Below are positions 4,658-24,045 of a DNA stretch of 24,451 nucleotides, piece after piece. Every line of letters begins with the position of its first letter. Position 1 is the stretch's first letter. The notes below the pieces were generated by a model, which worked only from the letters and a program-made list of their open reading frames with translations, was not told where the DNA came from and did not search any database. Source of the stretch: a virus. The stretch spans positions 1 through 24,451 of the IMG/VR virus record IMGVR_UViG_3300044516_000573. One strand, 5' to 3'. Made by a program: the position numbers and the translations under genes.

Positions 4658-4684
4658 TGCGGCGAGGGCCGCAGGAGGTGCGAG
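4658..4684 (+). promoter_or_regulatory. GAGG-loop hairpin plus ribosome binding site (copy 1)
   Basis: Stem TGCGGC (4658-4663), loop GAGG (4664-4667), stem GCCGCA (4668-4673): a perfect 6 bp hairpin. GGAGG follows at 4674-4678, six bases before ATG 4685. The hairpin ends 11 bases before the start codon. Four other copies with different stems and the same loop occur at 17785, 23290, 23612 and 24028. Confidence 0.6.
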
Positions 4685-4924
4685 ATGGGCAGGTTCATCC
4701 TCGCGGCGCTCGTCGTCGCAGGCTGCTCCGCACAGTGGCAATCCTCGGCGCGCGCGATGAGCGTGTCGCAGATGCCGTGCACGGAGCAGCAGGTCGAGGT
4801 CCGCGAGGTCGAGATGCACTACGCCTCGTGGACGTGGGACGCGCGGTGCAAGGGCGTGGACTATCACTGCACGTCGGCGGGGTTCGCCACGACCTGCCGC
4901 ACGGTCGAGGCGCTCGCCGAGTAG
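4685..4924 (+). CDS. Small Cys-rich lipoprotein (cargo gene)
   Basis: A protein of 79 residues. ATG 4685 was chosen over the in-frame ATG 4619 because it has GGAGG six bases upstream and puts a lipoprotein signal at the N-terminus: MGRF, a short hydrophobic core, lipobox V-A-G-C with Cys14 and Ser at +2. The mature part has four more cysteines, suggesting two disulfides, with a WTWDARCKGVDYHCTS stretch near residues 49-64. Cys-x-Tyr-x-Cys arrangements like this are familiar from small lipoproteins of myxobacteria, though I cannot name a family. It is unrelated in type to the flanking packaging and head genes and carries its own control signals. That is typical of a moron, perhaps altering the host envelope or excluding other phages. 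Confidence 0.75.
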   Translation: MGRFILAALVVAGCSAQWQSSARAMSVSQMPCTEQQVEVREVEMHYASWTWDARCKGVDYHCTSAGFATTCRTVEALAE

Positions 4925-4952
4925 CCTGACGCACCGTGCGTGCATCGACTGA

Positions 4953-4977
4953 CGGCGTGTGGTAGTCTGCGCACATG
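4953..4977 (+). promoter_or_regulatory. Leaderless-type promoter box at the portal start (copy 1)
   Basis: An extended -10 TGGTAGTCT ends at 4968, followed by six bases (GCGCAC) and ATG 4975. There is no Shine-Dalgarno upstream of this ATG. Spacing of 6 between -10 and ATG puts the predicted transcription start at or within a base of the start codon. The 25 bases 4953-4977 match 10399-10423 at 23 positions. No good -35 is visible at this copy. Confidence 0.5.
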
Positions 4978-6363
4978 CCGCAGGCTGTCCGCGTATCCGG
5001 TTACGTCGCGCCCGAGGCCGTACCAGGTCGGGGCATCGGCGCGCACTCTCTCGCGGCGCAGGATGGCGAGCACGCGCGACGGTTCGCGGTGCTGTCGGAG
5101 CGCATCCGGGCGTACAGCGTCGCCGAGCGGTGCGCGCCCGTGCGGGTCGGGTGGCAGGCGTTGTCGGGCCTCGCGACCTCGGCCACGTGGGACGTATCCC
5201 CGGTGGCGGATTCGCCTGCGTCGGAGGCCGCTGCGGCGGTCGTGCGGCGCGTGCTCGGCCTCGGCGGGGCAAGCTCCCCGGTCATCGAGTGGGAGGGGCG
5301 CATCATCGCGCTGCCCTCGTGGGAGTCGCGACTGCGCGACCTCCTGCGCGGCGCGCTAATGGGGTTCAGCCTCGCGGAGATGGTCGCATACCCCTACGAG
5401 GGGACCACCTACGTCGACCTTGAGCCGCGCGACCAGTCGAGCGTGCGCCAATGGGTGTACGACCGTGACGGGCGCGTGGTCGCCGTCGACCAGTGGCGCC
5501 GCGAGCCGGGCGGGCTGTCGAGCATGACATCGGTGCGGCTGCCCTACGAGCGGCTGGTCCACCTGGTCTACCCCTCGCCTGCCGCGGGCGTCGAGGGCCT
5601 CGGAATCATGCGGCACATCGAGCCGCTCGCCACGGACTACACGGCGACGATGCGCCTGCGCGCGGTCGCGATGCAGCGGACTGCGGTCCCAGTGCCCACC
5701 ATCAGCATCGACGAGGAGGCCCTCGGGCGCTCGGCTCGCAGCGATGGCGGACCGCCCGACGTGTCGGCCATTGAGTCGGCGCGGACTGCGCTCCTCGACA
5801 TCGCCCGCAAGTGGTCCTCGCACGAGGAGGCCGCGCTGGTGATGCCCTCGTGGGCAACGCTCGCGTGGGAAGGCCGCCCCGACTCGGCCGCGCCTCTCTC
5901 GGGGGTGGTCGCCGACCTCGAGCGGCAGATCCTCCAAGCCTGCTACGTGCAACACCTCGCGATGGGCTCGGCGTCCTCGTCGGGCTCTTACTCCACGGCG
6001 CAGGTGCACGCGGACCTCGCGGCGCAGCTCGCGGGCGACCTGTGTCAGTGGGTCGCCGAGGGGCTCGCGCCTTACGTCCGCACCATCGTCGCGCTCAACA
6101 TCGGGCCGCTCCCGCTCGCCGAGCTGCCGCGCCTGACCTATGCGGGCATCCGCTCCCCGCTGTGGGTCGAGCGCATCGCGGACGTGGTCTCGCTGCTCAA
6201 CACCGGCGCGCTGACGCCGTCGCCCGACGACGAGCGCCACATCCGCGCCACCCTCGAGCTTGCGCCGCCATCGACTGCCGCCGATGGGCGTAGCGAGCGC
6301 GCGCGGGTCGCGGGCACGGTCGCCATGACGCCGCCTTCGGGCGGGCTGCCGGGCGGTCTCTGA
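4975..6363 (+). CDS. Portal protein, DUF935 (Mu gp29-like) type
   Basis: A protein of 462 residues forming the dodecameric ring through which DNA enters the head. The family is indicated by the order of features: an N-terminal helical segment, a Trp- and Pro-containing region near residues 115-180 with a YDRDGRV.. turn, YERLVHLVYPSP and GVEGLGIMRHIEP at about 190-218, and near residues 327-347 a HLAMGS...GSYSTAQVHADL segment. The last corresponds to the Gly-Ser-Tyr/His signature near the end of DUF935 portals. Length is normal or slightly short. It begins with a leaderless-type promoter box and overlaps the protease gene by one base. Confidence 0.85.
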   Translation: MPQAVRVSGYVAPEAVPGRGIGAHSLAAQDGEHARRFAVLSERIRAYSVAERCAPVRVGWQALSGLATSATWDVSPVADSPASEAAAAVVRRVLGLGGASSPVIEWEGRIIALPSWESRLRDLLRGALMGFSLAEMVAYPYEGTTYVDLEPRDQSSVRQWVYDRDGRVVAVDQWRREPGGLSSMTSVRLPYERLVHLVYPSPAAGVEGLGIMRHIEPLATDYTATMRLRAVAMQRTAVPVPTISIDEEALGRSARSDGGPPDVSAIESARTALLDIARKWSSHEEAALVMPSWATLAWEGRPDSAAPLSGVVADLERQILQACYVQHLAMGSASSSGSYSTAQVHADLAAQLAGDLCQWVAEGLAPYVRTIVALNIGPLPLAELPRLTYAGIRSPLWVERIADVVSLLNTGALTPSPDDERHIRATLELAPPSTAADGRSERARVAGTVAMTPPSGGLPGGL

Positions 6364-7862
6364 TGGCGCTCACGACCGCCGAGCTGACGCCACCCGAGGC
6401 CGTGCAGGACGCCGCGCGCAAGGGCGTCGAGCTGCACCAGGCCGGCAGGTCCGGTGACGGGCTCAAGCCCGAGACCGTGCGCCGCGCCAACAGCATCGCG
6501 GACGGTGAGCCGCAGTCCGAGCAGTGGGCGACCGTCGAGGCCCCTGCATGGTTCGCGCGCCACGCTGACGACTTCCAGCGCGGCGTCGATGACCAGGATG
6601 GCGAGGAGACGCCGGGATTCGTGGCGTGGCTCCTGTGGGGCGGCGACCCCGGGCGGCGATGGGTCGAGCGGCTCAAGGAGGTCGACATGCAGCGAGACGA
6701 GAACACGGGCGCATCGATGGCGCCGGCCGAACTGGCCGTGCTTGCAGGGCATGCGCGGGCGCTCTCGGCGCCTCGGCCTGCGCGGGTGCTGCCCGATGGT
6801 GCGGTCGGCTCGATGCACCTCGAGGGCGGGCTCTACCCCTACGATTACAGCGCTGCTCGGCACGAGGCCGACAAGGCGATGGCCGAGCGCCATCCCGTGC
6901 TCATCATCCACGTCGACTCCCCCGGAGGTTACGTCTCTGGTGTCGTCGAGACCCGGCGCGCCATCGCACGAGCGCAGGCCGCGGGCGTCTACGTCGTCGC
7001 CTACGTCTACGGCACCGCGGCATCAGCGGCGCTGTGGGTTATCTCGGGCGCCGATGAGATTGTCGCGTCGCCGACTGCGCAGGTCGGTGGCGTGGGCGTG
7101 GTCGTGACCCTCTACGTCGAGGACGCCGAGCACGTGGTCGAGGTGGTCTCGACGCAGACGCCGAGCAAGCGCGCGTCGGTCGACGACGGCGACTACATCG
7201 CAGCGCTCCAGCGCCGGGTCGACGCGCTCGCCGAGGTCATGCTCGACGACATCGCGCGCGGTCGTGGCGTGAGTCGCGAGGCGCTCGGCGATGGCTCGGT
7301 CTACTCGGCGCAGGACGCCGTGGAGCGGGGCCTCGTGGACCGCATCGCGACCGACGCTGATGACTGGATGTTCATGGGCGGCCGCATGCCGCTCGACTAC
7401 CCGCGCGCTGTCCGGACCGCCCCGGCGCTCGCGTCTCTCGATGGCGGAATGGAGGCGCTCGATATGAGCGAGCAGGTTGCGGCGCAGGCCGCACAGTTGG
7501 AGGCGCTCGCCCGAGAGGTCGAGCGTCTGAAGGGTGCGCAGCAGGCTGATGCCGCGCGCGCCGAAGCCGCGGAGCTCGCGCTCCGCACGCGGGACGCGGA
7601 GGCCATTGTCGATGGCGCCATCCGTGAGACCCGCATCCCGCAGGCGTCGCGTGCGTCGTGGGTCGAGCGGGCCGTCCGCATCGGCCTCGACGACGTGCGC
7701 GCGATGCTCTCCGACATGGTGCCGCAGGCGCAGGTCGGAAGCGCGGCGGGGCACGGCGGGGCCGCCGAGCCCAAGCCCGAGACCACGCCCGAAAAGGCCG
7801 CGGTCGCCAAGGCGAACGAACTGATTGCTGCGGCCCTCGGCCGGAAGGAGAGCACCCGATGA
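6363..7862 (+). CDS. Prohead protease (S49/SppA-like) fused to N-terminal phage domain and C-terminal scaffold
   Basis: A protein of 499 residues in three parts. Residues 5-105 form a helical domain ending in AWLLWGGDPGRRW (88-100), a motif found at the start of some phage head-protease proteins (XkdF-like). Residues 130-340 are an S49 serine protease: DSPGG at 185-189, nucleophile Ser221 in GTAASAALW, and a candidate general base Lys269 in TPSKRAS. The spacing of 48 is close to that in Bacillus SppA (Ser147/Lys199). Residues 368-499 form a Glu/Ala coiled coil with a basic C-terminus, the layout of a scaffold that is digested during maturation. Strong ribosome binding sites lie before the second and third parts. 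It should process the scaffold and possibly the capsid protein. Confidence 0.85.
   Translation: MALTTAELTPPEAVQDAARKGVELHQAGRSGDGLKPETVRRANSIADGEPQSEQWATVEAPAWFARHADDFQRGVDDQDGEETPGFVAWLLWGGDPGRRWVERLKEVDMQRDENTGASMAPAELAVLAGHARALSAPRPARVLPDGAVGSMHLEGGLYPYDYSAARHEADKAMAERHPVLIIHVDSPGGYVSGVVETRRAIARAQAAGVYVVAYVYGTAASAALWVISGADEIVASPTAQVGGVGVVVTLYVEDAEHVVEVVSTQTPSKRASVDDGDYIAALQRRVDALAEVMLDDIARGRGVSREALGDGSVYSAQDAVERGLVDRIATDADDWMFMGGRMPLDYPRAVRTAPALASLDGGMEALDMSEQVAAQAAQLEALAREVERLKGAQQADAARAEAAELALRTRDAEAIVDGAIRETRIPQASRASWVERAVRIGLDDVRAMLSDMVPQAQVGSAAGHGGAAEPKPETTPEKAAVAKANELIAAALGRKESTR
6675..6689 (+). promoter_or_regulatory. Internal ribosome binding site and in-frame start within the protease gene
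   Basis: AAGGAGGT at 6675-6682 is followed four bases later by ATG 6687-6689, in frame and encoding Met109. This is among the strongest Shine-Dalgarno sequences in the window and falls at the junction between the WGGD domain and the S49 protease domain. A product of residues 109-499 would be a protease-scaffold without the N-terminal domain. Confidence 0.5.
7464..7862 (+). CDS. Nested capsid scaffold from an internal start
   Basis: ATG 7464 is in frame with the protease gene (Met368) and is preceded by GGAGG at 7451-7455 with eight bases of spacing. The predicted 132-residue product is the C-terminal region alone: an Ala/Glu-rich coiled coil at about 1-50, then helical segments and a Pro/Lys region. 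Lambda C/Nu3 and Mu I/Z express a scaffold in just this way from the 3' part of the protease gene. Known biology of those phages and the local sequence agree, but expression here is inferred. Confidence 0.6.
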   Translation: MSEQVAAQAAQLEALAREVERLKGAQQADAARAEAAELALRTRDAEAIVDGAIRETRIPQASRASWVERAVRIGLDDVRAMLSDMVPQAQVGSAAGHGGAAEPKPETTPEKAAVAKANELIAAALGRKESTR

Positions 7863-8263
7863 GCCAGCCCGTCACCATCACGTGCATCGCGTCGGCCGCC
7901 ATTGCGCGCGGTCGGTTCGTGCGCCTCAACTCCTACTCCACCGGTATCCCGGTCGTCACGCAGGCGACGGACGGCACGAGCGCGACGGGTCACCTCATCG
8001 TGGGCGTGGCGGGCACCGCCGCCGCCGCGGTCGGCGACCTCATCGACGTGGTCGTGCAGGGTCGCGTCGACTACGCCATCGCCTCGGCCGCCATCGCCCC
8101 GGGTACCACCATCGGGTGCACCGCGGACGCCGAGGTCAAGGCCGCAGCGTCCGGTGACTTCGGTCTCGGCACCATGCTCGGCGGCCGGTCCTCGACCGGT
8201 GCGACCGCCAACGACGCCGTGTGCAGCATCCTGCTCTCCGGCATCCGCATCCTCGTGGCCTAA
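7859..8263 (+). CDS. Capsid decoration-like protein (DUF2190-like)
   Basis: A protein of 134 residues from ATG 7859, with AAGGAGAG ending nine bases upstream. It is nearly all short beta strands with many Ala, Gly, Val and Thr: an ITCIASAAIARGRFVRL opening, a GHLIVGVAGTAAAAVGD centre, and a second half with similar ASAAIAPGTTIG and LGTML phrases. This is typical of small head proteins between protease and major capsid genes, such as the DUF2190 group that binds the outside of the capsid. Position and composition support the call; there is no catalytic motif. Confidence 0.7.
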   Translation: MSQPVTITCIASAAIARGRFVRLNSYSTGIPVVTQATDGTSATGHLIVGVAGTAAAAVGDLIDVVVQGRVDYAIASAAIAPGTTIGCTADAEVKAAASGDFGLGTMLGGRSSTGATANDAVCSILLSGIRILVA

Positions 8264-8276
8264 GGAGGGCTGACAC

Positions 8277-9344
8277 ATGGCTGGTTACACCACGGCGCAG
8301 CTTGCGCCGGTCAATCCGGTCCTCTCGGCGGCAGGCGTCATCGGCGCCATGCAGGACCTGGGCGGGCTCGTGTTTCCGCGCCTCGGGCGCAACACCGTCC
8401 GCGTCGCCCCGCGCGACCATCAGGGCACGATCTTCGTGGCGCCCTCGGCGTCGATGCTCGGCTCGCCTGCGGTCCTCGAGACGGCGCTCGCGGCCGACTA
8501 CCCGCAGCGCTCGCTCGGCGCACCGACGACGGTCACGTACCGCACGGTCGAGATGAAGCTCGCGTCGGACCTCCTGCCGTACCGGCTCCTCGAGCGGTCG
8601 CAGATGCCCGAGAGCATCAAGGAATTCGAGGCCGTGAGCCTCGCGCGCTCGCTCGCCCTCGCCGTCGAGAGCAAGGTCCTCACCTCGTTCTCGACGACCG
8701 GCAACTGGACCGGCACGGCCGCCCTCACGGCCCTCTCGGGCGGCGCGGGTGTGCAGTGGTCGACGGTCGCCACGGCCGCCCCCATGAGCGACCTGCGGGC
8801 CGCCATCGAGGTGTTCCGTGCGCAGGCGTTCGGCATGCGTCCCGACACGGTCATCATGAGCCGCGCGGTCGCCTCCTTCGTGGCGCGCTCCGCCGAGGCC
8901 CGTGGCTTCGCCATCGTGACCTCGGGCGCGTCGCCCATCGCGCGCGCGGTCGCCTCGGATGAGTACCTCATCGCGGCGTTCAAGGGTGAGCTCGGCCTCG
9001 ACCTCATCATCAGCGACGCGCGGCGGCAGACCTCGGCGGACGGGCTCACGCACACGTCGGCCGACCTGCTCACCGACACCGTGTGGCTCGGCTGCCTCGG
9101 CAGCGGCGTCACGGCGGCCGGCAACGACGTGCTCGCGCGCCCCTCGGCGTTCCTGCTCGTGGTCGAGGACCCGCTGTTCGGCGGCGGCGTCGACAGCGGT
9201 GGCCTCGTGCTCCCGATGTCGATTCGCGAGGAGGAGAGCGCCAACCTCTCCGCTCGCGGCGTGTACATCAAGGGCGAGGTCTACACCGACGAGGTCGCCC
9301 TGATGGCGCAGCTCGGCTACACCATCACCGACTGTCTCGCCTGA
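8277..9344 (+). CDS. Major capsid protein
   Basis: A protein of 355 residues and the expected most abundant virion protein. It has the best-placed ribosome binding site of the head genes, AAGGAGGG at 8262-8269, seven bases before ATG 8277. The sequence suits an HK97-fold capsid: a flexible N-arm, an extended E-loop-like part at about 40-95, a long spine-helix region near residues 110-145, a WSTVATAAPMSDLRAAIEVF helix near 160-180, FGMRPDTVIMS near 185-195 (a helix followed by a core strand), and a beta-rich C-terminus. Position after protease, scaffold and decoration genes is canonical. I cannot assign it to a subfamily, and no obvious N-terminal cleavage site is visible. Confidence 0.85.
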   Translation: MAGYTTAQLAPVNPVLSAAGVIGAMQDLGGLVFPRLGRNTVRVAPRDHQGTIFVAPSASMLGSPAVLETALAADYPQRSLGAPTTVTYRTVEMKLASDLLPYRLLERSQMPESIKEFEAVSLARSLALAVESKVLTSFSTTGNWTGTAALTALSGGAGVQWSTVATAAPMSDLRAAIEVFRAQAFGMRPDTVIMSRAVASFVARSAEARGFAIVTSGASPIARAVASDEYLIAAFKGELGLDLIISDARRQTSADGLTHTSADLLTDTVWLGCLGSGVTAAGNDVLARPSAFLLVVEDPLFGGGVDSGGLVLPMSIREEESANLSARGVYIKGEVYTDEVALMAQLGYTITDCLA

Positions 9345-9541
9345 TGCGCTGCACCGTCACGAAGCGCGTCCCCACGATGGGTCAGAACAACCACCCGTGG
9401 ACCGCGGACCTGTCCGCCGAGCAGGTGGCGTGGATTCGCGAGCAGTACGGCGACGGTGCGGTGCACATCCTCGAGCCGGTCGAGCCCGAGGCCATCGAGC
9501 CCGAGGCCGTCGAGGCGCCCAAGCGCAAGCCTCGCCGCTGA
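9344..9541 (+). CDS. Small unknown head-region protein
   Basis: A protein of 65 residues from ATG 9344 (TGATG overlap with the capsid gene). The first half contains a LSAEQVAWIREQYG helix; the second half is an acidic Glu/Pro/Val repeat (EPEAIEPEAVEAP) ending in a basic KRKPRR. Small proteins of this kind often lie directly after the capsid gene in phage genomes and may be head-completion factors. No function can be assigned from sequence. Confidence 0.6.
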   Translation: MRCTVTKRVPTMGQNNHPWTADLSAEQVAWIREQYGDGAVHILEPVEPEAIEPEAVEAPKRKPRR

Positions 9542-9544
9542 CGC

Positions 9545-10381
9545 ATGGCACTGCCCGCAGCGATACGGGCGGCTCTGCGTCGGCGGCAGGCCGACATCGA
9601 CGACGTAGGGCAGCGGACCGCCGCTGCTCTCGTCGGACTCCGCGCCACCCTGCGCGAGCGGCTGCTCGAGCTGCTCGACCAGGCCGGCGACGGCGATTGG
9701 CGCGCGGGCATCATCGCGGTGCAGCTCGACGAGGTCGCGGCCGCAGTCGCCGAGCTCACGGGCGAGGTACAAGACGCGTGGCTCGACGGGCTCGAAGCGG
9801 TCGAGCGCGCGACCCCCGCGCATCTCCGCTCCCTCGGCCTCGACCCGAGCGAGGTCATCGACGTCGAGGCGCTCACGTCCGTCATCGACGCCGCGAAGCG
9901 TGACGCGCGGGACGCATTCCGGGGCGCGTCGTTGTCGGTCGCCACGGACCTCATGCCGCTGCTCCGCGAAGGGTATCGGCTGGAGTCACTGACCGAGCTG
10001 TCCGAGCGCCTCGCGAAGCGCCTCGAAATCAGCACGGAGAAGGCCGCGACCGAGGCGCGCACGCAGACCGCGGTCTACGCGCGGGCCGTGGCGGGGGCCT
10101 ACGCCGACGAGCTGCCGGGCATCCTCGGGTACGCCTACGGAGGCCCGGAGGACGGCCTTACGCGCCCGTTCTGCGCGGCGCTTGTGGGGCTGTGGGTATC
10201 GCGAGCCCTCGCGCCGAAGCTGGACAACGGCGTCAACGGCCTGCCGCATCCGCTCGACAGCGGCGGCGGCTACAACTGCCGACACTCGTGGCTCGCGGTG
10301 CCGCTCTCGACGGCGCTGCGATGGGGCTACCGCGAGGCGACCGAGGCCGACATCACGGCGGCGAATCGCGCGGCGGTGTAG
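9545..10381 (+). CDS. MuF-like minor head / head morphogenesis protein
   Basis: A protein of 278 residues. The N-terminal two thirds are long helices; the C-terminus carries the MuF signature: TRPFC at residues 206-210, a Gly/Pro-rich loop with NGVNGLPHP, and GGYNCRHSW at 241-249. The Cys and His residues are the conserved ones of this family. These proteins are present in a few copies near the portal and are needed for head assembly or DNA protection. In Mu the homologue lies beside the portal; here it follows the capsid gene, so order is rearranged. It starts three bases after the previous gene. Confidence 0.85.
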   Translation: MALPAAIRAALRRRQADIDDVGQRTAAALVGLRATLRERLLELLDQAGDGDWRAGIIAVQLDEVAAAVAELTGEVQDAWLDGLEAVERATPAHLRSLGLDPSEVIDVEALTSVIDAAKRDARDAFRGASLSVATDLMPLLREGYRLESLTELSERLAKRLEISTEKAATEARTQTAVYARAVAGAYADELPGILGYAYGGPEDGLTRPFCAALVGLWVSRALAPKLDNGVNGLPHPLDSGGGYNCRHSWLAVPLSTALRWGYREATEADITAANRAAV

Positions 10382-10385
10382 GGCG

Positions 10386-10423
10386 TCGACCTCTCGCGCG
10401 GTGTGTGGTAGCCTGCGCACATG
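10386..10423 (+). promoter_or_regulatory. Leaderless-type promoter box (copy 2)
   Basis: TCGACC (10386-10391, four of six -35 positions), a 17-base spacer, extended -10 TGGTAGCCT ending at 10414, six bases (GCGCAC), then ATG 10421. No Shine-Dalgarno is present. Bases 10399-10423 match the portal copy at 23 of 25 positions. It occupies the 39-base gap after the MuF gene. Confidence 0.55.
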
Positions 10424-12036: not shown

Positions 12037-12506
12037 GCATCACGACCCTGCGCGACGCGCTGTACGCGACCATCGCGGGCCTCACGCCGACGAGCGTGCA
12101 GTCGTGCCCGTGGACGCGCGCGCGTGACATCCGCTCGGAGTCGGGCATCGCGCTGGAGTTCGCGAGCCTGCCGACGCGCTCGGTGTGGCTCGACATCGGG
12201 CCGCCCGTCGACACGGGGCTGCTCATCTCCTCGACCCTCGACGAGGTGCGGCACGACATCACGCTCCACGTCGTCTATCGAGACTCCGACCTCGCGTGGT
12301 CTGACGACGGCGACCTGGCCCGGCTCGTGACCTACGAGGACGCGGTGCAGCTCGTCGAGGCGTTGCGGCCTGCGTCGGTGTGGGGCTCGGACGCGAACAT
12401 CCTCGAGGTGTTTCCAGATACCGCCATTGTCGAGCTCGACGACGGCGACGGCAGAGTCATCGGGCGCGTGCTGCGCGTCCGCATCACGGCAGAGGTGACA
12501 GCATGA
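12033..12506 (+). CDS. Probable tail terminator protein
   Basis: A protein of 157 residues from GTG 12033, which overlaps the previous TGA. An alpha/beta pattern is visible: N-terminal helix SITTLRDALYATIAG, strands at SGIALEFAS and HDITLHVVYR, a helix with YEDAVQLVEALRP, and C-terminal strands AIVELDDGDG and VLRVRITAEV. Size, fold pattern and the slot just before the tail tube gene are those of tail terminator proteins that cap the tube. No residue motif clinches it. Confidence 0.6.
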   Translation: MSITTLRDALYATIAGLTPTSVQSCPWTRARDIRSESGIALEFASLPTRSVWLDIGPPVDTGLLISSTLDEVRHDITLHVVYRDSDLAWSDDGDLARLVTYEDAVQLVEALRPASVWGSDANILEVFPDTAIVELDDGDGRVIGRVLRVRITAEVTA

Positions 12507-14621: not shown

Positions 14622-14625
14622 CCTG

Positions 14626-16508: not shown

Positions 16509-17752
16509 TGGCCCGTTACCCCGCGCTCCTCGCAGGCTGCGACGTCGCCGCGCTCGCCGGGCTCATCCCGTTTACGAGGGGCGCGACGAACATCACGCTA
16601 CCCGCTGCGGCGTCGATGTACGACGGCGGGCGGTATCCCGACGTCGTCGCGTGGCTCACCGGCTACGGGTCGCAGGCCGGGCGGCATCTCGCAGGCGACA
16701 TCATCACCGCGTGGGCAGCGGCGGGCGGCGGTACTCTCGCGTGGGAGGCTGACATCACGACTGATGACCGCGTCCGAATCAGGGTGCCGAATGCGAGCCT
16801 CGGGGCATGGTCGCTTGTCGCCACCGCGGGCAACGCCTACGGCATGCCCACGGGCACCACGGCGGCATCTCTCGTCTCGGGATACCGGCAGGTGGTCGGC
16901 ACGCTCCCGTGGACGCGCGGCAACTACGACGCGGGGGCCTCGCCGCACTCGCTGACCATCACGGACGGCGTCGACACCATCGGCGTGTCGACCATCACGG
17001 CGCGCGTGCACTCGGTGCCCACGATGCTCCGGGCCTCGACAACGACCGATGAGGGCGTCTCACCGCTGACCTCGCTCGAGGACGCGGACAACGACGCGGT
17101 GGACAATGCAGACCGGCGCGTCCGGTGGGGCCTCGACGAGACGGGGCGCGTCTGGACCTCGTACCCGTCGCCGACCATCGACCCCATCGGGTGGCTCTCG
17201 ACGACGGCAGGGCTCGCGTTCCGGCGGCTCATGGGCTTCACCGGCAGCGAGTCGCCGGTGGTCACGGGCGGGCGCGCGCTGCTCACGGCGACATACGTCT
17301 GCCCGCTGGTCCTCCCGCTCTCGCGCGGCATGACCCGCTACTCGCAGACCCTGCGCACGTCGGCTGGGCTCGTCGAGCTCTCCAGCGGCCGCGCTCGGGG
17401 TCGACACATCGGGCACTGCCGGCAGCACGGCGTCGGGTACACCCTGCGCGGGCCGACGCACACCACCTCCGACGAGGGGCAAGCGCTCGCCGCGTGCTGG
17501 CCGCTCCTCGGGCGCGGGCAGCGCGTCGCCATCTCGCACGACCTCGGCGACCCTCGCCGCTCTCGACTCCTCGCCGACCTCTACGACGGCACGGCAGTCG
17601 CGGCGCACTCGACGGCCTACACGACCGAGCATCTCCGCGGGCGCGTGCCTGGTCGCGTCGCAGGGGGCAGCGCGGCGGATGTGGCGTTTGGCCTCGATGG
17701 CGCGCGGGTCCGCTCCGACGAGGTGACGCTGCTCGTCGATGAGGACGCGTAG
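16508..17752 (+). CDS. Tail-tip structural protein of unknown family
   Basis: A protein of 414 residues; ATG 16508 is preferred over the adjacent GTG 16505 because of the TGATG overlap. It is beta-rich with many Thr, Gly and Asp and few charged helices. An NPALG-like N-terminus is absent; a segment with TRYSQTLRTSAGLVELSSGR lies near residues 275-295 and DDPRR-type turns follow. It lies in the distal-tail slot directly after the tape measure. I assign it to the virion from position and composition only. Confidence 0.55.
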   Translation: MARYPALLAGCDVAALAGLIPFTRGATNITLPAAASMYDGGRYPDVVAWLTGYGSQAGRHLAGDIITAWAAAGGGTLAWEADITTDDRVRIRVPNASLGAWSLVATAGNAYGMPTGTTAASLVSGYRQVVGTLPWTRGNYDAGASPHSLTITDGVDTIGVSTITARVHSVPTMLRASTTTDEGVSPLTSLEDADNDAVDNADRRVRWGLDETGRVWTSYPSPTIDPIGWLSTTAGLAFRRLMGFTGSESPVVTGGRALLTATYVCPLVLPLSRGMTRYSQTLRTSAGLVELSSGRARGRHIGHCRQHGVGYTLRGPTHTTSDEGQALAACWPLLGRGQRVAISHDLGDPRRSRLLADLYDGTAVAAHSTAYTTEHLRGRVPGRVAGGSAADVAFGLDGARVRSDEVTLLVDEDA

Positions 17753-17779
17753 ACACGGGCGCGGCGGTGTGCTCATCAT
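17750..17779 (+). promoter_or_regulatory. Candidate promoter of the DUF4338 cargo gene
   Basis: TAGACA at 17750-17755 (five of six -35 positions), an 18-base spacer, and CATCAT at 17774-17779 (four of six -10 positions). Transcription would start near 17786, at the first bases of the GAGG-loop hairpin. The -35 overlaps the stop codon of the preceding gene. Confidence 0.4.
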
Positions 17780-17784
17780 GCGCG

Positions 17785-17811
17785 GCGCTCGAGGGAGCGC
17801 AGGAGGACAGC
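17785..17811 (+). promoter_or_regulatory. GAGG-loop hairpin plus ribosome binding site (copy 2)
   Basis: Stem GCGCTC (17785-17790), loop GAGG (17791-17794), stem GAGCGC (17795-17800): perfect 6 bp pairing. AGGAGG follows at 17801-17806, five bases before ATG 17812. The stem sequence differs from the other copies while loop, closing pair and downstream layout agree. Confidence 0.6.
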
Positions 17812-18396
17812 ATGAGCGACGCGGCATTCCTGCCGGTGTCAACATGGGACGCAGATCTCGTGCAGGCATACGCGGACCACTACACAGGCAGCAGGGGCGC
17901 GCCGCCCGGGAAGAAACTCGCGTGGCGCATCTTCACGGGCGGGCGCTCTCGCGGGTGGATTGTTCTCGGCGAGCCGCCGTTCAAACTTGCGGCGAGGCGC
18001 TCGCTCGGTCTCATAGACGCGCGTCCGTTGGCCGAGACCGTGTGCTGCGCGCTGTACCGCGTCGAGACGCGACTGCCGGGCGAGCCATCAGCCGGTGACA
18101 TCCTGCGCACGTGGCACGGCGTGGCAGCGGCAGAGTGGGCGGCGCGGTACGGGTGGACGCCGTTGCACTGGGAAACAATGGTGGACCCGGCAGCGGTCGC
18201 GTCTGCGGTGCCTGGGGCGTGCTTTCGCCGGGCCGGATACCGCGTCCTCGGCAACACGACAGGGCGGGGCGCCTCGAGGCCGGCAGGCAGCACGCGGGGT
18301 GCGCGAATCTGGACCAGTGGCAAGAGCCTGAAGCTTGTGATGTACCGGGGCCCGCTCGCGCGGGTCGAGGCCGCTGACGCCCTGCGCGGCGTGTGA
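17812..18396 (+). CDS. DUF4338 (DruA-like) protein, possible Mom/GNAT relative
   Basis: A protein of 194 residues; ATG 17812 is chosen for its AGGAGG. Compared with my recollection of the DUF4338 family, the full order of landmarks is present: DHYTGSR near residue 22, LAWRIF, GWIVLGEPPFKLAARRSLG (48-66), a YRVETRLPG strand, WAARYGWTPLHWETMVDP (109-126), then PGACFRRAGYRVLGNTTGRG (134-153) and a final KSLKLVMYRGPL. DUF4338 is found in DruA of the Druantia defence system and beside some transposases. The Y-x2-A/G-x-Y-x-V-L-G pattern also recalls the Mu DNA-modification protein Mom (GNAT fold). A virion role is unlikely; DNA modification or anti-host defence is inference. It interrupts tail genes and has its own promoter, hairpin and RBS. 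Confidence 0.7.
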   Translation: MSDAAFLPVSTWDADLVQAYADHYTGSRGAPPGKKLAWRIFTGGRSRGWIVLGEPPFKLAARRSLGLIDARPLAETVCCALYRVETRLPGEPSAGDILRTWHGVAAAEWAARYGWTPLHWETMVDPAAVASAVPGACFRRAGYRVLGNTTGRGASRPAGSTRGARIWTSGKSLKLVMYRGPLARVEAADALRGV

Positions 18397-18411
18397 TACT
18401 CTCGCCGCGTG
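18374..18411 (+). promoter_or_regulatory. Leaderless-type promoter box (copy 3)
   Basis: CTGACG (18374-18379, four of six -35 positions), a 17-base spacer, extended -10 TGATACTCT ending at 18402, six bases (CGCCGC), then GTG 18409. No Shine-Dalgarno is present. The TGA of the -10 element is also the stop codon of the DUF4338 gene. It would restart expression of tail genes beyond the cargo insert. Confidence 0.5.
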
Positions 18412-19470
18412 GCGCGCACCATCCCCGGCTCGTACACGGCGGTCGACCCGCAGGCGCTGCTCACGGGCGAGGCGCTCAAGGCATCGACCGTCACGCCGCT
18501 CGGGAGCGCGGTCAACTACCTCATGTCGCAGGTCGCGCGGTGCACGGTCATCTCGCAGTCGTGGGCGCAGACAGGCGGCGCGTCGGTCTGCCGGCGCACG
18601 GCGGGCACGCTCGCCGAGTGCGGCAAGTGGGAGATTCCGCAGCTCGCCGGCGCGACTGCCGTCACCGTGACGCTCATCGCGCGCGTCGCAGCCGGTCCGG
18701 TGACCACGCACGCGGTCGAGATACGCAGCGCCACGGGCGCAGCCACGCTCACCATCGACGCCGCGGACGGGCTTTCCACGTCCCTCGCGGTCTACTCTGG
18801 CAGCCTCGCGGTCGGGTTCGCAGGCGGGTACGAGAACATCACGATGCACCTGCTCGGCGACGGCGCAACGCCCGTCGAGGTGGTCGCGCTCCTCGTGCGG
18901 TACCCGGTGCTCTCGAGCCTCGCGGCGGGGCGCCTCTCGGACGGGCGCATCGCGGTCGATGACGACGACATCGAGCCCGACAACCCGCTCTCGGCGCGCC
19001 TCGGGCACGACCTGCGCGGGTGCATGGCGGGGCTCGCAGCGCTCCCCCGGGTCCACGCCAACGTGAGCGACCTGCGCAACGTCGACACGGCCAGCCAAAA
19101 CGAACTCGCCCCGTATCGGCACAGCTTCCCCGGGCCTCGCCTGCCCGACGTCGATGACCGCGCGCTCGACCTCACGGTGCGCATCCGCACCACGTCGGCG
19201 GCAGATGGGCGCATCGTCCTGCGGCACTCGGGCGACGGTGAGCGCGGGCCCGTGACCGAGGTGCAGGTCGGCGCCGGCGCTGCGCGCTCGATGAGCACGG
19301 CGACCATCCGCCAGCGCCCGGGGCAGGGCATCGCGCCGGCCTCGCTCGGCATCGATTGGCAGGCGGTCGGCATCGTGCCGCAGCACGACCCGGCGTTCGT
19401 CGACCGGCTTCAGACCGACACGAGCACGGTGGACCAGGTGCACGGCGTCCTCGTGTGGGGGTGGACGTGA
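18409..19470 (+). CDS. Tail-tip structural protein of unknown family
   Basis: A protein of 353 residues starting at GTG 18409, six bases after a -10 box. The first 165 residues are beta-rich with AVTVTLIARVAAGP, HAVEIRSATGAATLTI and a YENITMHLLGDGATPVEVVALLVRYPV ending. The second part has an acidic DDDDIEPDNP loop, and the last third repeats a beta pattern (LDLTVRIRTTSAADGRIVLR). It probably contributes to the tail tip or a carbohydrate-binding decoration, but no recognisable domain supports a specific role. Confidence 0.55.
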   Translation: MARTIPGSYTAVDPQALLTGEALKASTVTPLGSAVNYLMSQVARCTVISQSWAQTGGASVCRRTAGTLAECGKWEIPQLAGATAVTVTLIARVAAGPVTTHAVEIRSATGAATLTIDAADGLSTSLAVYSGSLAVGFAGGYENITMHLLGDGATPVEVVALLVRYPVLSSLAAGRLSDGRIAVDDDDIEPDNPLSARLGHDLRGCMAGLAALPRVHANVSDLRNVDTASQNELAPYRHSFPGPRLPDVDDRALDLTVRIRTTSAADGRIVLRHSGDGERGPVTEVQVGAGAARSMSTATIRQRPGQGIAPASLGIDWQAVGIVPQHDPAFVDRLQTDTSTVDQVHGVLVWGWT

Positions 19471-20120
19471 CGGTCCCTTACACCGCGCGTCTCATCCTCC
19501 CCGCTGCGGCCGAGATGCGCACCGCGCGCACCGTCACGGGCGCCACGCTCGCCGGCCTCGCCGGCGGGGCCAACACGCTCGCCGGGGTCTACGCGCGGCA
19601 CTGGCAGGTTGTGCACGGTACGCAGGTCGTAGAGACCACAGCGGCGCGGCGCCACGGGTACGTGCACTCGGCCGATGGCGTCAACCAGGCCCTCGACGCG
19701 CTCATCACCATCGGCCCTCTCGACGCGGCGCTTCAAATCGCTGTGCTCACGGCAGCGCAGGAGGCGGGCGGCTCGTCGTCGCCGGTCGTGACGGTGCGGC
19801 TCGACTCCATCACCTCGACCGTCATCGACATTGGCGTGACCTGGTCGCGCGCGCTCGGCACCCTCGCGTGCCGCGAGCTGCCCGAGATACGCATCGCGGC
19901 CGCGTCCGGGCAGCGGCGCATCGTGCCCACGTGGCAGGTCTCGGGCGACGTGCGCCGGCCTGACCTCGCGACGGCGGGCAGCGCGTCGGGGCCTCGCGCG
20001 CTCGAGGCGAACACGACCGCAGGTGACGTGCGCGGGACCGTCGCCGTGCTGCGCGTGACCTCGACCTCGTGCCGCATCCTCGCGGTCGCCGTGCTCCCGG
20101 TATGGGGGGTGGCGCTGTGA
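19467..20120 (+). CDS. Tail-tip structural protein of unknown family
   Basis: A protein of 217 residues from GTG 19467, overlapping the preceding TGA. It has an early LAGGANTLAGVYARHW segment, a strand pair VVTVRLDSITSTVIDIGVTWSR near the middle and a beta-rich C-terminus ending in RILAVAVLPVWG. Composition resembles the two preceding tail proteins. It is coupled by GTGA to the hub gene, so the two products are probably made in related amounts. No function is recognised. Confidence 0.55.
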   Translation: MTVPYTARLILPAAAEMRTARTVTGATLAGLAGGANTLAGVYARHWQVVHGTQVVETTAARRHGYVHSADGVNQALDALITIGPLDAALQIAVLTAAQEAGGSSSPVVTVRLDSITSTVIDIGVTWSRALGTLACRELPEIRIAAASGQRRIVPTWQVSGDVRRPDLATAGSASGPRALEANTTAGDVRGTVAVLRVTSTSCRILAVAVLPVWGVAL

Positions 20121-23100
20121 CCGTCGCCGCGCTCGACGTTCTGCGGGGTCGCCAGTGGGCGGTCGTGGTCACGGTCGCCGGGCTCACCGACCGCTACTAT
20201 TCCGGCCCGCATCCCGACTCGCAGAACATCCCGGGCACTGGCGGCGCGATGACCTACCGCGACGTCGAGGCCGTGCTGTCGCTCGGTCCCGAGTCGTGCA
20301 GCGTCGACGAGGTGGACGCCACGGTCGAGCAGTCGCCGGTGTCGGTGCGGCTTCTCGCTCGAGGGGCCGCGCTCTCGCCGCTCCACGCCACGACCACGGC
20401 GCGCACTGTGGACCCGCTCTCTACCCTGCGGCGCATCGGGCCCCGCGGCGCGACGTCGCGCACCACGCTCGGCGCCACGCTCATCAGCGAGACCGGGCCG
20501 AGCGTCATCACGTGCACGTCGGACATCTCGGCGTGGACCGGCCTTATCCACTGCGGCCTCGAGGCGCTGCACGTCACGGGTGCGGGCACCGGCTCTGCGC
20601 TCGACCTCGACGTGGCGCGCGGCGTGGCTTACACGCGCATCGCTCGGCACGTGTGGCAGCCGTCGCGCGGGTATCAGCCCGCGGTAACTCGCGAGGTCAC
20701 GGCGTGGCGCGGGCGTGTGTGCATCGTGCAGGCGGCGCCGGTCGCACACGGGGTCCGCGTCGGGTCATACGCCGAGGTCTGGCGCGGCGTGCTCGACCGC
20801 GAACCGTCCCTCGCCGCTGACGGGCTGACGCTCGAACTGCGCATCGCCCCGCTGTCGGCACTCCTGCGGCAGCGACTCTCCTCGGGCGCGACGAGCACGA
20901 CCCTCGTGCGGGGCTGGCACTACATCGTTCCGGGGCAGGGTTCGCGGGTCACGCATGACCAGATTTTCGAGCGCTCCGAGGCGTATCAGAGCCAGTACAA
21001 GGTCAACGCCGGGACCGACGCCGAGGTCGACATCCGGTGCTACCGCGCGCACGAACGGCTCACCGACATCACGCTCGACCCGGACCATCCGCGCGGCGGG
21101 CAGATCGAGGTGGACACGGGCGGGGCGTCGGCTACGCACGCAGTCACGGCGCGCGCTGTGGGCGGCATCGGCGGTCGGCTGACGACGGACCCGTCACCGG
21201 CAGCGCCTGCGGGCGGCGCGCCGTTCGGCCTCGTCGTCTCGCCCTACGTCGAGGAGCCGTGCACGCTTGAGCTCGTCGACCCGACCGGCACGGGCGAGCT
21301 CGTGCGCTGGCCCGAGCGGGCGCTTCAAATCATCGCCGGAACCTACGCGGCGGGCGTGACCTGGAACGATGCGCGGCACGACTGCGACCGATGGCGCATC
21401 GCCACGACGCAGGGGCGCCTCGGCCGGTGGGCGCGGGTCGAGCTGTCGCAGGATGGGTCGGGGTGGCTCTGGCGCGCCGGGCTCATCGTCGGCGGAGCTG
21501 CGCGTTCGCCTCTCTCGCTGCGGTGGCAACCAGGTGAGCAGGTCTGCGTCGGCGTCGATTTCCGGGCGCCTGATGACCCTGCCAAGCTCATCGACATCGA
21601 GGCGCAGTCCTTCGCGATTCGCCGCGAGCGCGTCTCGGCTGACGCTGACCTCCGCGCTCTGGCCCGCATCCCGTGTCGAGGCCCCGCGCTCTCATGGTTC
21701 CAAGGGTCGGAAACTCGGCTTCTCGTCGCCGATGACGTGTACTCCGGCGCAGGGCAGCAGCAGACGCTGCGGCTCTCCGGGGGCGACGAGAACAACGGCG
21801 CGGGTGGGTCCATCGACGTCGGGGTGACGGCATCGAGCGCCGTCAACGACCCCGACACGGGCGACCTCGTCGGCTACCTGCTGACCGTCGCGCACGTCGA
21901 CAACCCGAACCGCTACATCCTCGACCGCGGCACGCCCATCAGCGTGACGCCGCAGGCCCGGTCACAGGGCGTCGACCCGGGCGTCCTTCTGCTGCGGCTG
22001 CTCCAGTCGGGCGGCGGCGGGCAGGTCCACGGGGCATACGACGTCCTGCCCTACGGTGCAGGCCTCGACGATGACGACATGCTGGAGGACTCATTCTCCG
22101 CGCTGCCGATGCCCGAGCCCCTGCGCGGCGTCTCGGCTGACGTGTCGGGCTCCTCGACCCTCTCCGACGTCATGGGCGGGGTGCTGACGCTCATCGGCGC
22201 GGCAGTCGTGCAGCGTTGGGCGGACGGGCGGCAGCGCCTCGTGTGCACGCCCATCGGGCCGGCGCCATCGGCTGACGCGGTGATGACCATCACCGACGCG
22301 GACATCCTCGCAGACGGACAGTGCGTCTCGACGGTCGACGGGCGGGTCGTGCGCTCGTATCGCATCGAGAGTGACCATGATGCGGCCGGCGAGCCGGGGC
22401 GCGTCACGACCTACGTGGACAGCGACGCGGTGGACGCGACCGGGGGCGACGCGGGCGAGCAGATGACGCTCGACCTGCGCCACATCCGCCTCGACGGCGG
22501 GGGCGCGGATGCGGCGGTACTGCTGCTCCCGGTCATCCAGCACCTCCGGCGACGGGCCGGCGTGCCTCGCGTGCGGTACCAGGTCGCGGTCAGTGCGGAC
22601 CATCCCGGCGCGCTCGAGGTCGGGGTCGGCGACACGGTCACGCTGACGTGCAGCTCGGCAGTCGGTATCGACGGGACGCTCGGGCTCACCTCGGAACCGT
22701 GCCGCGTGCTCGGCGTCGAGCGGGATTGGCTCGGGAATCGCGTCGGGCTGACGCTCGGCGCATCGGGCCTGCGACCCTCGGGGTGGGCGCCGTCGCTGCG
22801 GGTCGCGTCGGTGAGCTCGCCGACCGTCGTGGTGGTCGCCGCGAATCAGTATACGAGCGCCGTGTGTCCGCGTACTGGCGAGGCGCAGACCGACATCGGG
22901 CGCACGTCCCTCGCCTACTTCGCGGTCGGCGACCGGGTGCGGTGCATCCCTGCGGGCGCGTGGGCGAGCGGCGGCGAGGTGAGCATCACCGTCATCGCGG
23001 GCAATACCGTGACGTTCGGCGGGGCGCACGGCCTCGCAGCGGGCGACGACATCGACCACGCAGACTATGACGACGCGAGCACGGCGGCGCGGGTGTATGC

Positions 23101-23164
23101 GTACCTGAGCGATGCGGCGCACACGCTCGGGACTGCGGCGGTACGGGGTCGCGACGTAGGCTAG
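20117..23164 (+). CDS. Large tail hub / central tail-tip protein
   Basis: A protein of 1015 residues from GTG 20117 (GTGA overlap), the largest gene of the window and the last of the tail operon. It is predominantly beta. Residues 190-260 contain TAWRGRVCIVQAAPV, then SYAEVWRGVLDREPSLAADGLTLELRIAPLSALL, resembling the hub domains of gpJ/gp27-like proteins. Near residue 730 an unusually hydrophobic LSDVMGGVLTLIGAAVVQRW appears, followed by DGRQRLVCTPIG. The last 45 residues (DYDDASTAARVYAYLSDAA..LG) resemble a common tail-protein C-terminus. It should form the tube end and contact the receptor-binding parts. Confidence 0.65.
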   Translation: MTVAALDVLRGRQWAVVVTVAGLTDRYYSGPHPDSQNIPGTGGAMTYRDVEAVLSLGPESCSVDEVDATVEQSPVSVRLLARGAALSPLHATTTARTVDPLSTLRRIGPRGATSRTTLGATLISETGPSVITCTSDISAWTGLIHCGLEALHVTGAGTGSALDLDVARGVAYTRIARHVWQPSRGYQPAVTREVTAWRGRVCIVQAAPVAHGVRVGSYAEVWRGVLDREPSLAADGLTLELRIAPLSALLRQRLSSGATSTTLVRGWHYIVPGQGSRVTHDQIFERSEAYQSQYKVNAGTDAEVDIRCYRAHERLTDITLDPDHPRGGQIEVDTGGASATHAVTARAVGGIGGRLTTDPSPAAPAGGAPFGLVVSPYVEEPCTLELVDPTGTGELVRWPERALQIIAGTYAAGVTWNDARHDCDRWRIATTQGRLGRWARVELSQDGSGWLWRAGLIVGGAARSPLSLRWQPGEQVCVGVDFRAPDDPAKLIDIEAQSFAIRRERVSADADLRALARIPCRGPALSWFQGSETRLLVADDVYSGAGQQQTLRLSGGDENNGAGGSIDVGVTASSAVNDPDTGDLVGYLLTVAHVDNPNRYILDRGTPISVTPQARSQGVDPGVLLLRLLQSGGGGQVHGAYDVLPYGAGLDDDDMLEDSFSALPMPEPLRGVSADVSGSSTLSDVMGGVLTLIGAAVVQRWADGRQRLVCTPIGPAPSADAVMTITDADILADGQCVSTVDGRVVRSYRIESDHDAAGEPGRVTTYVDSDAVDATGGDAGEQMTLDLRHIRLDGGGADAAVLLLPVIQHLRRRAGVPRVRYQVAVSADHPGALEVGVGDTVTLTCSSAVGIDGTLGLTSEPCRVLGVERDWLGNRVGLTLGASGLRPSGWAPSLRVASVSSPTVVVVAANQYTSAVCPRTGEAQTDIGRTSLAYFAVGDRVRCIPAGAWASGGEVSITVIAGNTVTFGGAHGLAAGDDIDHADYDDASTAARVYAYLSDAAHTLGTAAVRGRDVG

Positions 23165-23167
23165 GGT

Positions 23168-23182
23168 CGTTGCGGCGCAACG
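23168..23182 (+). terminator. Perfect hairpin after the tail operon, weak terminator candidate
   Basis: CGTTGC (23168-23173), GGC, GCAACG (23177-23182) form a perfect 6 bp hairpin four bases after the hub stop codon. The following bases (GTCTTGG) contain no real T tract, so it is at best a weak intrinsic terminator or a stabilising 3' hairpin. It could also be a DNA-binding palindrome. Confidence 0.35.
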
Positions 23183-23203
23183 GTCTTGGAGAAAAGTGTC
23201 AAA

Positions 23204-23247
23204 AAGCGCAATATGCGCTTGACCTATGCGTCGTGGCGTGGGATGGT
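23204..23247 (+). promoter_or_regulatory. Palindromic operator overlapping a candidate promoter
   Basis: AAGCGCA (23204-23210), ATA, TGCGCTT (23214-23220) form a perfect 7 bp inverted repeat. Its last two bases start a -35 TTGACC (23219-23224), which is followed after 17 bases by a weak -10 GATGGT (23242-23247). The surrounding bases 23183-23214 are notably A-rich for this window. A repressor on the palindrome would block the promoter. The likely start site is near 23254, where a CACC/GGTG stem (23253-23267) encloses another GAGG. Confidence 0.45.
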
Positions 23248-23289
23248 CTGTTCACCGAGGCGAGGTGCCCGGGAGCGAAAACATCAGAG

Positions 23290-23318
23290 GCGACCGAGGG
23301 GTCGCGAGGAGATGGGCC
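23290..23318 (+). promoter_or_regulatory. GAGG-loop hairpin plus ribosome binding site (copy 3)
   Basis: Stem GCGACC (23290-23295), loop GAGG (23296-23299), stem GGTCGC (23300-23305). GAGGAG follows at 23306-23311, seven bases before ATG 23319. Compared with the copy at 23612, it carries one extra A-T pair inserted on both sides of the stem, a paired change that supports RNA structure. Confidence 0.65.
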
Positions 23319-23516
23319 ATGACGAAGCACAAGCATACGGTCGCCGGTAAGACGTACACCATCGCCATCAGCACCGTACCTGGGTTCTGCTGTTGGGCGA
23401 CTGTCAAACTTGGGCGCGCTCGCATCGGCGAGACGCAGAACATCCCCTACGGGATGCGCGGCGTGGCCTACGAGCGCGCCGTCGAGATTGCGGAGCGCCA
23501 CGCCTCGGCCGCCTAA
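23319..23516 (+). CDS. Small basic protein of unknown function
   Basis: A protein of 65 residues from ATG 23319 with GAGGAG seven bases upstream. It opens TKHKHTVAGKTYTIAIS, has two adjacent cysteines in GFCCWATVKLG, and ends in a helix AYERAVEIAERHAS. The strand-strand-helix pattern and basic N-terminus could suit a small nucleic-acid-binding protein, but I recognise no family. It is the first gene after the late operon, downstream of an operator-like promoter, so it is probably an early or regulatory gene. Confidence 0.6.
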   Translation: MTKHKHTVAGKTYTIAISTVPGFCCWATVKLGRARIGETQNIPYGMRGVAYERAVEIAERHASAA

Positions 23517-23521
23517 CCGCC

Positions 23522-23537
23522 GCGCCCTCCGGGGCGC
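23522..23537 (+). terminator. Hairpin with UCCG tetraloop after the small gene
   Basis: GCGCCC (23522-23527), TCCG, GGGCGC (23532-23537): a perfect 6 bp GC stem with a UNCG-class tetraloop, five bases after the TAA stop. No T tract follows, so it may be an attenuator, an mRNA-stabilising hairpin or a Rho-dependent pause site rather than an intrinsic terminator. The rest of the 121-base gap up to 23637 holds a second possible stem, GGTCGC (23545-23550) with GCGACC (23574-23579). Confidence 0.4.
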
Positions 23538-23611
23538 CTCAATGGGTCGCACGCCGTCAGCCTGCACGCTGGCGCGACCTGCACGCCATATCGGCGACTG
23601 ATGACGGCACG

Positions 23612-23637
23612 GCGCCGAGGGGCGCGAGGAGGATGGA
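23612..23637 (+). promoter_or_regulatory. GAGG-loop hairpin plus ribosome binding site (copy 4)
   Basis: Stem GCGCC (23612-23616), loop GAGG (23617-23620), stem GGCGC (23621-23625). GAGGAGG follows at 23626-23632, five bases before ATG 23638. Bases 23610-23625 are identical to 24026-24041. Confidence 0.6.
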
Positions 23638-24045
23638 ATGGGCTACATGGTCGGGCACTGGAGCCACTACAGCGAGTGTTTCTCGGCGTTCCCGCACGGG
23701 CGCGTCGAGACTCTCTCGCTCGCACTCGTCGCGTGCGGCGTCGCGCGCGAGGACATCCCAATGGTCGAGGCGTCGGGCGACGTCGGGCCGGGGCGTGTTG
23801 CCACGTCTGCTGCATCCGCGGAGCTGGGCAACTTGCTCGACGTCGTCCGCGACGAGGCTGCGTGCAACACGCGGCAGGGCGACGCTGCCCGCGCGTGGGC
23901 TGCGGCAGCGAGCCAGCCGCATCACGGCAGACGGGCGCTCCTCGTGGCTGAGGCGCTGCGATGTGAGACGCCGAGGCCGTGGTCGGCGACTGCGGCGCTT
24001 GCGATTGCAGTCCTCGCCGTGACTGCGGCGCCGAGGGGCGCATGA
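23638..24045 (+). CDS. Unknown protein with C-terminal hydrophobic Ala-rich segment
   Basis: A protein of 135 residues from ATG 23638, with GAGGAGG upstream. The N-terminus reads MGYMVGHWSHYSECFSAFPHGR; the middle is helical with an ALVACGVAREDIP segment and three cysteines in total. Residues 113-130 (SATAALAIAVLAVTAA) are hydrophobic and could be a weak membrane helix. Codons 130-134 (APRGA) are encoded by a GAGG-loop hairpin that belongs to the next gene's start, so protein and RNA constraints overlap here. No family is recognised. Confidence 0.55.
   Translation: MGYMVGHWSHYSECFSAFPHGRVETLSLALVACGVAREDIPMVEASGDVGPGRVATSAASAELGNLLDVVRDEAACNTRQGDAARAWAAAASQPHHGRRALLVAEALRCETPRPWSATAALAIAVLAVTAAPRGA
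24028..24041 (+). promoter_or_regulatory. GAGG-loop hairpin abutting a start codon (copy 5)
   Basis: Stem GCGCC (24028-24032), loop GAGG (24033-24036), stem GGCGC (24037-24041), immediately followed by ATG 24042. Here the loop itself is the only Shine-Dalgarno candidate, five bases from the start codon. Pairing would hide or present it, depending on what binds. The hairpin lies within the end of the preceding coding region. Confidence 0.6.

Follow-up and report, generated by a model that had tools for sequence, protein, structure and literature searches.

The window analysed here is the whole of a 24,451-base IMG/VR fragment (record IMGVR_UViG_3300044516_000573) with a GC content of 72% that contains genes for the head and the tail of a tailed phage. 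Its plus strand carries five short hairpins with the loop GAGG, each ahead of a small gene in the same orientation, at exactly the positions given by a first-pass annotation of the sequence. We assigned these copies and those of related contigs to slots A to M according to their gene neighbourhood. In slot A, TGCGGC-GAGG-GCCGCA (4658-4673) precedes a GGAGG Shine-Dalgarno (SD) sequence and the ATG at 4685 of a lipoprotein-like open reading frame (ORF) of 79 amino acids (4685-4924, + strand). The slot B hairpin, GCGCTC-GAGG-GAGCGC (17785-17800), adjoins an AGGAGG SD and the ATG at 17812 of an accessory ORF of 194 amino acids (17812-18396, +) with only a weak match to phrog_24928. Slot C consists of GCGACC-GAGG-GGTCGC (23290-23305), a GAGGAG SD and the ATG at 23319 of a 65-residue accessory ORF (23319-23516, +), and slot D of GCGCC-GAGG-GGCGC (23612-23625), a GAGGAGG SD and the ATG at 23638 of a 135-residue accessory ORF without any family match (23638-24045, +). 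The slot E hairpin (24028-24041) lies in the 3' end of this preceding ORF and adjoins, without a separate SD, the ATG at 24042 of a helix-turn-helix protein (24042-24281, +) that matches PF01381 above the cut-off; in the related contig G001, the slot E gene is preceded by the hairpin, a GAGGAGG SD and GTG. All five window copies end 0-13 nt ahead of a start codon.

GAGG tetraloop hairpins with at least five Watson-Crick pairs occur exactly five times in the window, all on the sense strand, and none with a stem of at least 5 bp is found on the minus strand. The window has 59 tetraloop hairpins with stems of at least five pairs, and no other loop is as frequent among them as GAGG. Dinucleotide shuffles yield 0.38 GAGG hairpins per window compared to the five observed, and the arrangement of hairpin directly followed by SD and ATG, which is present four times, is expected 0.003 times. 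As the first-pass annotation had remarked, the stems change in sequence while pairing is kept, one copy has an additional A-T pair, and the virion genes of the window are free of the element.

A search with the terminase gave 56 loci, among them a close group of 14 IMG/VR contigs (G001-G014) that we oriented like the window; nearly all of these have terminases at least 78% identical and the remainder came from pattern scans. All contigs are metagenomic fragments and genes were called by a simple script. Across 15 contigs (255 kb, window included) the element is present in about 60 copies, each oriented with its gene. G001, G002 and G003 contain 6, 9 and 8 GAGG hairpins on the sense strand and none on the opposite strand; 3, 7 and 7 of them adjoin an SD and ATG (expected <0.01). 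Assignment to slots resulted in 31 slot-by-genome entries with 27 distinct sequences, plus two with one mismatch. The element is absent from terminase relatives of about 70% identity. At a conserved place, these more distant relatives have another hairpin, CGCGCG-AGTC-CGCGCG or similar, slightly upstream of the SD of a single gene, for example in L015 at 7500 and in L025 at 14697. Known phage records gave no near match. With regard to the host, the terminase relatives yielded no bacterial genome and a search with the lipoprotein gave just two weak matches in 284 genomes of the Polyangiales phylum.

The anatomy of the element is highly regular. In all slot-by-genome entries the 5' arm begins with GCG and the 3' arm ends with CGC, and one or two variable pairs, some of them G-U, separate this base of the stem from the closing pair. 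AGGAGG, GAGGAG or a close variant directly follows the stem, and the start codon lies 10-13 nt past it. Exceptions in spacing are slot E in two genomes, where the start adjoins the stem within the preceding ORF, and slot J, where GTG follows 3 nt past the stem. In these two slots, which lack a downstream SD, the loop itself stands 5 and 9 nt ahead of the start codon, a spacing at which an SD could work.

Among 14 distinct copies with six pairs, all 84 of 84 cells pair, compared to 88.9% with the 3' letters shuffled. The covariation score of 0.374 was reached in none of 500 shuffles (0.134), and sliding the partners by 1-3 columns lowers pairing to 27-62%. Since the shuffles preserve the relatedness of the copies, the strongest evidence for pairing comes from changes at single orthologous sites: across genomes, slot K has the stems GCGCTC/GAGCGC, GCGGCC/GGCCGC and GCGGTC/GGCCGC, slot J has GCGACC/GGTCGC and GCGGCC/GGCCGC, and slot C has GCGACC/GGTCGC, GCGGCC/GGTCGC and GCGGCC/GGCCGC. 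By comparison, the pattern with free middle letters gave 54 matches in 84,980 bacterial and archaeal genomes, of which 4 are Watson-Crick paired, or 10 if G-U is allowed. As pairing is kept in the phages whereas only 4 of the 54 bacterial matches pair, the hairpin is a real cis-acting RNA element. The shared cis-acting RNA that had been proposed from the window alone is well supported by the strand bias, the fixed position next to the SD, the covariation and the preservation of the element in related contigs. The first-pass annotation had also suggested asking whether covariance matches favour start codons: the phage matches precede starts, and in 57 Polyangiales genomes a covariance model (R1) found six matches at E≤0.01, with E-values that are rough, one of which is ahead of a start (of a gene of any length). 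This check, which could have refuted the shared RNA element, did not do so. The remaining Polyangiales matches fall within genes or off starts. Rfam had no matches at or above the gathering score in 99 kb, and no copy is accompanied by a T-run, which led us to reject a terminator.

A lone hairpin with a stem identical to a phage copy (G001, 33785) was seen before hpf, the gene of a ribosome hibernation factor, in a Polyangiaceae metagenome-assembled genome (L176, 3402-3431). We considered and rejected a host regulon, as the hairpin precedes hpf in none of about two dozen other readable Polyangiales hpf upstream regions; the copy in L176 is probably due to chance.

About 17 mostly unrelated gene families stand downstream of the element and most of them have no Pfam or PHROGs match. 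Among the families are the small lipoprotein, the helix-turn-helix protein (PF01381), a DnaC-like helicase loader (phrog_50, IstB_IS21), a phrog_5931 protein that faintly matches ParB-like proteins, and many orphans. The five genes of the window had been described as cargo or regulatory genes; as one related copy serves a replication gene, the helicase loader, the element is not limited to these classes.

Comparison of the aligned genomes reveals how these genes come and go. The slot B accessory cassette, consisting of promoter-like sequence, hairpin, SD and gene (17749-18408, +), lies between two tail-region genes; G001 has no such insert, and the flanking genes meet there at 28903/28908. Conversely, slot B' of G002 (23395-23846) is an insertion relative to window position 10375/10394 within the virion gene cluster, and slot M of the same contig has been inserted after the lipoprotein gene. 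At slot C, homology between the window and G002 spans the hairpin, SD and ATG (to 23321), the genes are unrelated, and homology resumes at 23520 just past the stop; G001 and G003 have yet other genes, which makes four different ones behind a single leader, and unrelated ORFs replace 23319-23516 in all three relatives. In slots A and K of G001, the leader is joined at the ATG to a newly inserted gene, and the old gene comes next but has no hairpin of its own, so that in slot A another gene than the lipoprotein-like ORF is directly behind the same leader. Boundaries of exchange fall at the ATG or at a neighbouring stop and start. In slot D, the ORF 23638-24045 is bracketed by identical 14-bp hairpin copies as direct repeats (23612-23625 and 24028-24041); G001 lacks this ORF and has kept one hairpin copy, a state that would result if the ORF is lost or gained through recombination of the two repeats.

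The same layout is found in a second, unrelated phage group (G015, G016, L266, L267), in which GCGCC-GAGG-GGCGC and GAGGG stand ahead of small ORFs that vary while the flanking sequence is shared; downstream of the ORFs comes a trailer, CACCGCCCGAAACCCGCCCCG, that is likewise shared. Among the second-group pieces searched, a single-strand-binding protein homologue is all that the two groups share. Apart from this group, the scattered single matches in unrelated viral contigs are near background in both pairing and association with starts. We also noted unrelated small ORFs between the same hairpin leader and the trailer CACCGCCCGAAACCCGCCCCGGACCTCTCCGG in L149 (reverse strand, 476-1130), L140, L266 and L267, and two tandem units of leader, ORF and trailer in one contig of the second group, which amount to a cassette slot of its own. 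Overall, we consider it very probable that the hairpin is a genuine RNA leader that serves exchangeable cassettes of accessory genes as their standard front end.

The position of promoters relative to the element varies. A scan predicts the promoter-like sequence TAGACA-18-CATCAT at 17750-17779 (+), which would place the transcript start at the slot B hairpin; the promoters of all other slots were judged by eye. In this way, transcript starts at the hairpin are predicted for slots A and J, and repeated TTGAC-type sequences are visible in slots C, H, I and J. The earlier suggestion that transcription starts at two of the window hairpins thus has the support of the scan at 17785, while at 4658 the scan was empty and the start was recognized by eye only. 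In slots C, H and I, the promoter-like sequence is about 40-50 nt farther upstream, and slots E, G, K and L lie within or overlap the upstream ORF. Promoter-like sequences are accordingly 0 to about 50 nt upstream of the hairpins, or missing. Because the distance to SD and start is constant while the promoter-like sequences are variable, the arrangement points to translation.

How the leader might act there can be outlined from sequence and predicted folding. The loop remains constant while the stem drifts, so something probably reads the loop, and both the ribosome and a protein are plausible readers. The ribosome is suggested by the match of GAGG to the SD core and by the loops that stand at SD distance in the slots without an SD. 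We modestly favour the ribosome, and tentatively propose that it would read the leader itself. The stem of 5-6 bp capped by GAGG adjoins the SD and may act at translation initiation: the loop could offer a second SD-like contact with the 16S tail beside the real SD, with the stem stacking next to the SD duplex. Any newly acquired gene would thereby obtain efficient translation in a transcript of 72% GC. Being alike everywhere, the leader would at the same time supply homology for gene exchange. The predicted openness of the start region is higher for hairpin genes than for 66 other genes with an SD (0.54 vs 0.39, p=1.4e-4).

Several observations weigh against a role of the ribosome as reader. 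With the hairpin forbidden in folding, openness is 0.58 compared to 0.54, so it is independent of the hairpin. When longer transcripts are folded, the hairpin forms with a mean predicted probability of only about 0.57, and for some copies a competing fold is stronger. Slot F departs from the GAGG loop with CAGG, and a single entry has T-A in place of the C-G closing pair. In 16S tails generally, the core CCUC is complementary to GAGG, and the tail of the host would have to conform. Finally, a conserved loop would be expected from protein binding as well. We had also considered that the stem sequesters or insulates the SD. Forbidding its arms in folding does not lower openness and leaves the starts open, which supports neither sequestration nor insulation.

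Binding by a protein is the basis of the most serious alternative, an operator at which a trans-acting RNA-binding protein or factor of phage or host recognizes the GAGG loop on the GCG/CGC stem and switches translation of the cassettes jointly. The near-invariant loop and basal stem with drifting middle pairs, the position beside the SD that is ideal for repression, and the regulon-like occurrence at many unlinked genes would all agree with it, and the gp43 protein of T4 demonstrates that phages use loop-specific hairpin operators (PMC3014915). However, no candidate binding protein was identified, the genes served range from lipoprotein to helicase loader, and two slots have no separate SD to occlude. 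An operator is hence possible but is not what we would expect. Less probable is an mRNA stabiliser, in which a stem-loop at or near the transcript start blocks decay that depends on the 5' end. The transcript starts predicted at the hairpin in slot B and by eye in A and J would suit such a function, but not the promoter-like sequences about 40-50 nt upstream in C, H and I, nor the copies of E, G, K and L in or overlapping an upstream ORF. Moreover, constant spacing runs to the SD and not to the transcript start, and stabilisation leaves unexplained why GAGG is conserved instead of a more stable loop. The first-pass annotation had named a translational operator, a 5' stabiliser and a loop-presented SD as candidates; the data do not separate the three, except that a plain 5' stabiliser is hard to reconcile with the several copies found within or just behind other genes.

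A short repeat kept solely as homology for cassette exchange, without a role as RNA, would account for exchange boundaries at the leader and for the identical 14-bp copies flanking slot D (23612, 24028), but selection for homology would not favour compensatory changes in the stem, G-U pairs, a single orientation or spacing to the SD, and this explanation is very improbable. We give hardly any credence to an inverted repeat in DNA bound by a transcription factor: despite the dyad symmetry and a helix-turn-helix protein among the cassette genes, the GAGG centre is always in gene orientation, and the arms vary freely yet stay complementary, with G-T combinations that suit RNA and not a DNA dimer site.

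In layout, the nearest known elements are those of cluster K phages, the 13-bp start-associated sequence (SAS) GGGATAGGAGCCC and the extended SAS (ESAS), a 17-bp imperfect inverted repeat upstream of it, whose departures do not support RNA pairing according to the authors (PMC3203893, PMC12699233). Like these, the present element is short, recurs many times in a phage genome with a single orientation, and stands immediately ahead of the starts of mainly non-structural genes from different families; its copies contain or join the SD. However, the consensus GGGATAGGAGCCC is in none of the listed copies or their flanks, and unlike ESAS, the element has stems of 5-6 bp in which 100% of cells are paired with compensatory changes, in another sequence and other phages. 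The promoter early stem-loop cassettes (PeSLs) of T4-type phages are described as having a stem-loop in a promoter-terminator motif that is repeated between small variable genes and tied to modular gene shuffling (Arbiol 2010 and Comeau 2014, as cited in PMC4503421). Both are composite stem-loop regulatory sequences associated with gene shuffling among related phages. In contrast to the PeSLs so described, the hairpin has no T-run, is adjoined by a purine-rich SD and goes with the gene downstream of it, with no terminator-like site at the hairpins; the early promoter of the PeSL cassette may have a counterpart in the promoter-like sequence that the scan predicts in slot B alone and in the TTGAC-type sequences recognized by eye in C, H, I and J. 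The element belongs to neither SAS/ESAS nor PeSL. The hairpin operator of T4 gene 43 has the same layout upstream of the ribosome binding site and is loop-specific, but it serves one gene with an autogenous repressor (PMC3014915), whereas the present hairpin is shared by about 17 gene families and has no binder known to us.

Phage morons are accessory gene units inserted between conserved genes and have their own promoter and terminator. The cassettes resemble them in that a gene is inserted between genes adjacent in relatives, as at 17749-18408 compared to G001 and at 23395-23846 of G002 compared to the window. A promoter is predicted for slot B; the scan found no terminator after its gene and one match inside the gene. 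To our knowledge, the definition of morons does not include a common RNA leader across many of them or the replacement of genes behind a fixed leader. The element bears on the open question of how small genes, once acquired by a phage, come to be usefully expressed. With different genes at the same site in sister genomes, it can be tested whether a standard leader lets foreign genes take hold. In transcripts of very high GC content it would also serve as a start element that is compact and portable, and it extends the little-explained start-associated elements of mycobacteriophages by evidence for RNA pairing that those lack.

A candidate self-cleaving ribozyme of the hepatitis delta virus (HDV) type is predicted at 23544-23608 (+) in the leader of slots D and F, where 3 nt separate it from the slot D hairpin downstream, and also at G002 3663, G003 6154, G004 18698 and G005 13751. 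All helices of the nested double pseudoknot (P1, P2, P3, P1.1 and P4) can be drawn: P1 as GGGUCGC/GCGACCU with 7 bp and a G-U at the expected cleavage site, P2 as GCCGUC/GACGGC with 6-7 bp, P3 as AGC/GCU, and P4 as CGCC/GGCG, with an L3 of CUGCAC able to pair with J1/4 (P1.1) and a J4/2 of ACUGAU. The Rfam model HDV_ribozyme gave 25.8 bits (28.1 in L075), which is below the gathering score of 50, and the candidate catalytic C is second in J4/2 as drawn, while the first position is expected for HDV-like ribozymes. Across the 255 kb of the group, a strict descriptor found this locus alone, and 378 kb of GC-rich control sequence yielded no match. HDV-like theta ribozymes in phages lie beside tRNAs (PMC10879173), whereas the present candidate would adjoin a protein gene. 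The GAGG hairpin itself as P4 of such a ribozyme was dropped because no P2 partner was seen, by eye, upstream of the other slots. One might combine these elements into a phage-wide RNA socket, an invariant-loop front end with genes plugged in at the ATG by recombination, all controlled as a post-transcriptional regulon by a loop-binding factor, and with the ribozyme trimming the leader upstream in at least one slot, but we regard this full combination as doubtful.

A further repeat was noticed just downstream of the sites at which hairpin cassettes are inserted. The sequence TGTGGTAGTCTGCGCAC followed by ATG, including near variants, stands at the starts of three virion genes of the window (4958-4977, 10404-10423 and 18392-18411), namely the portal gene starting at 4975 and the genes starting at 10421 and 18409, where 0.13 occurrences would be expected. 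It resembles an extended -10 box with a leaderless start.

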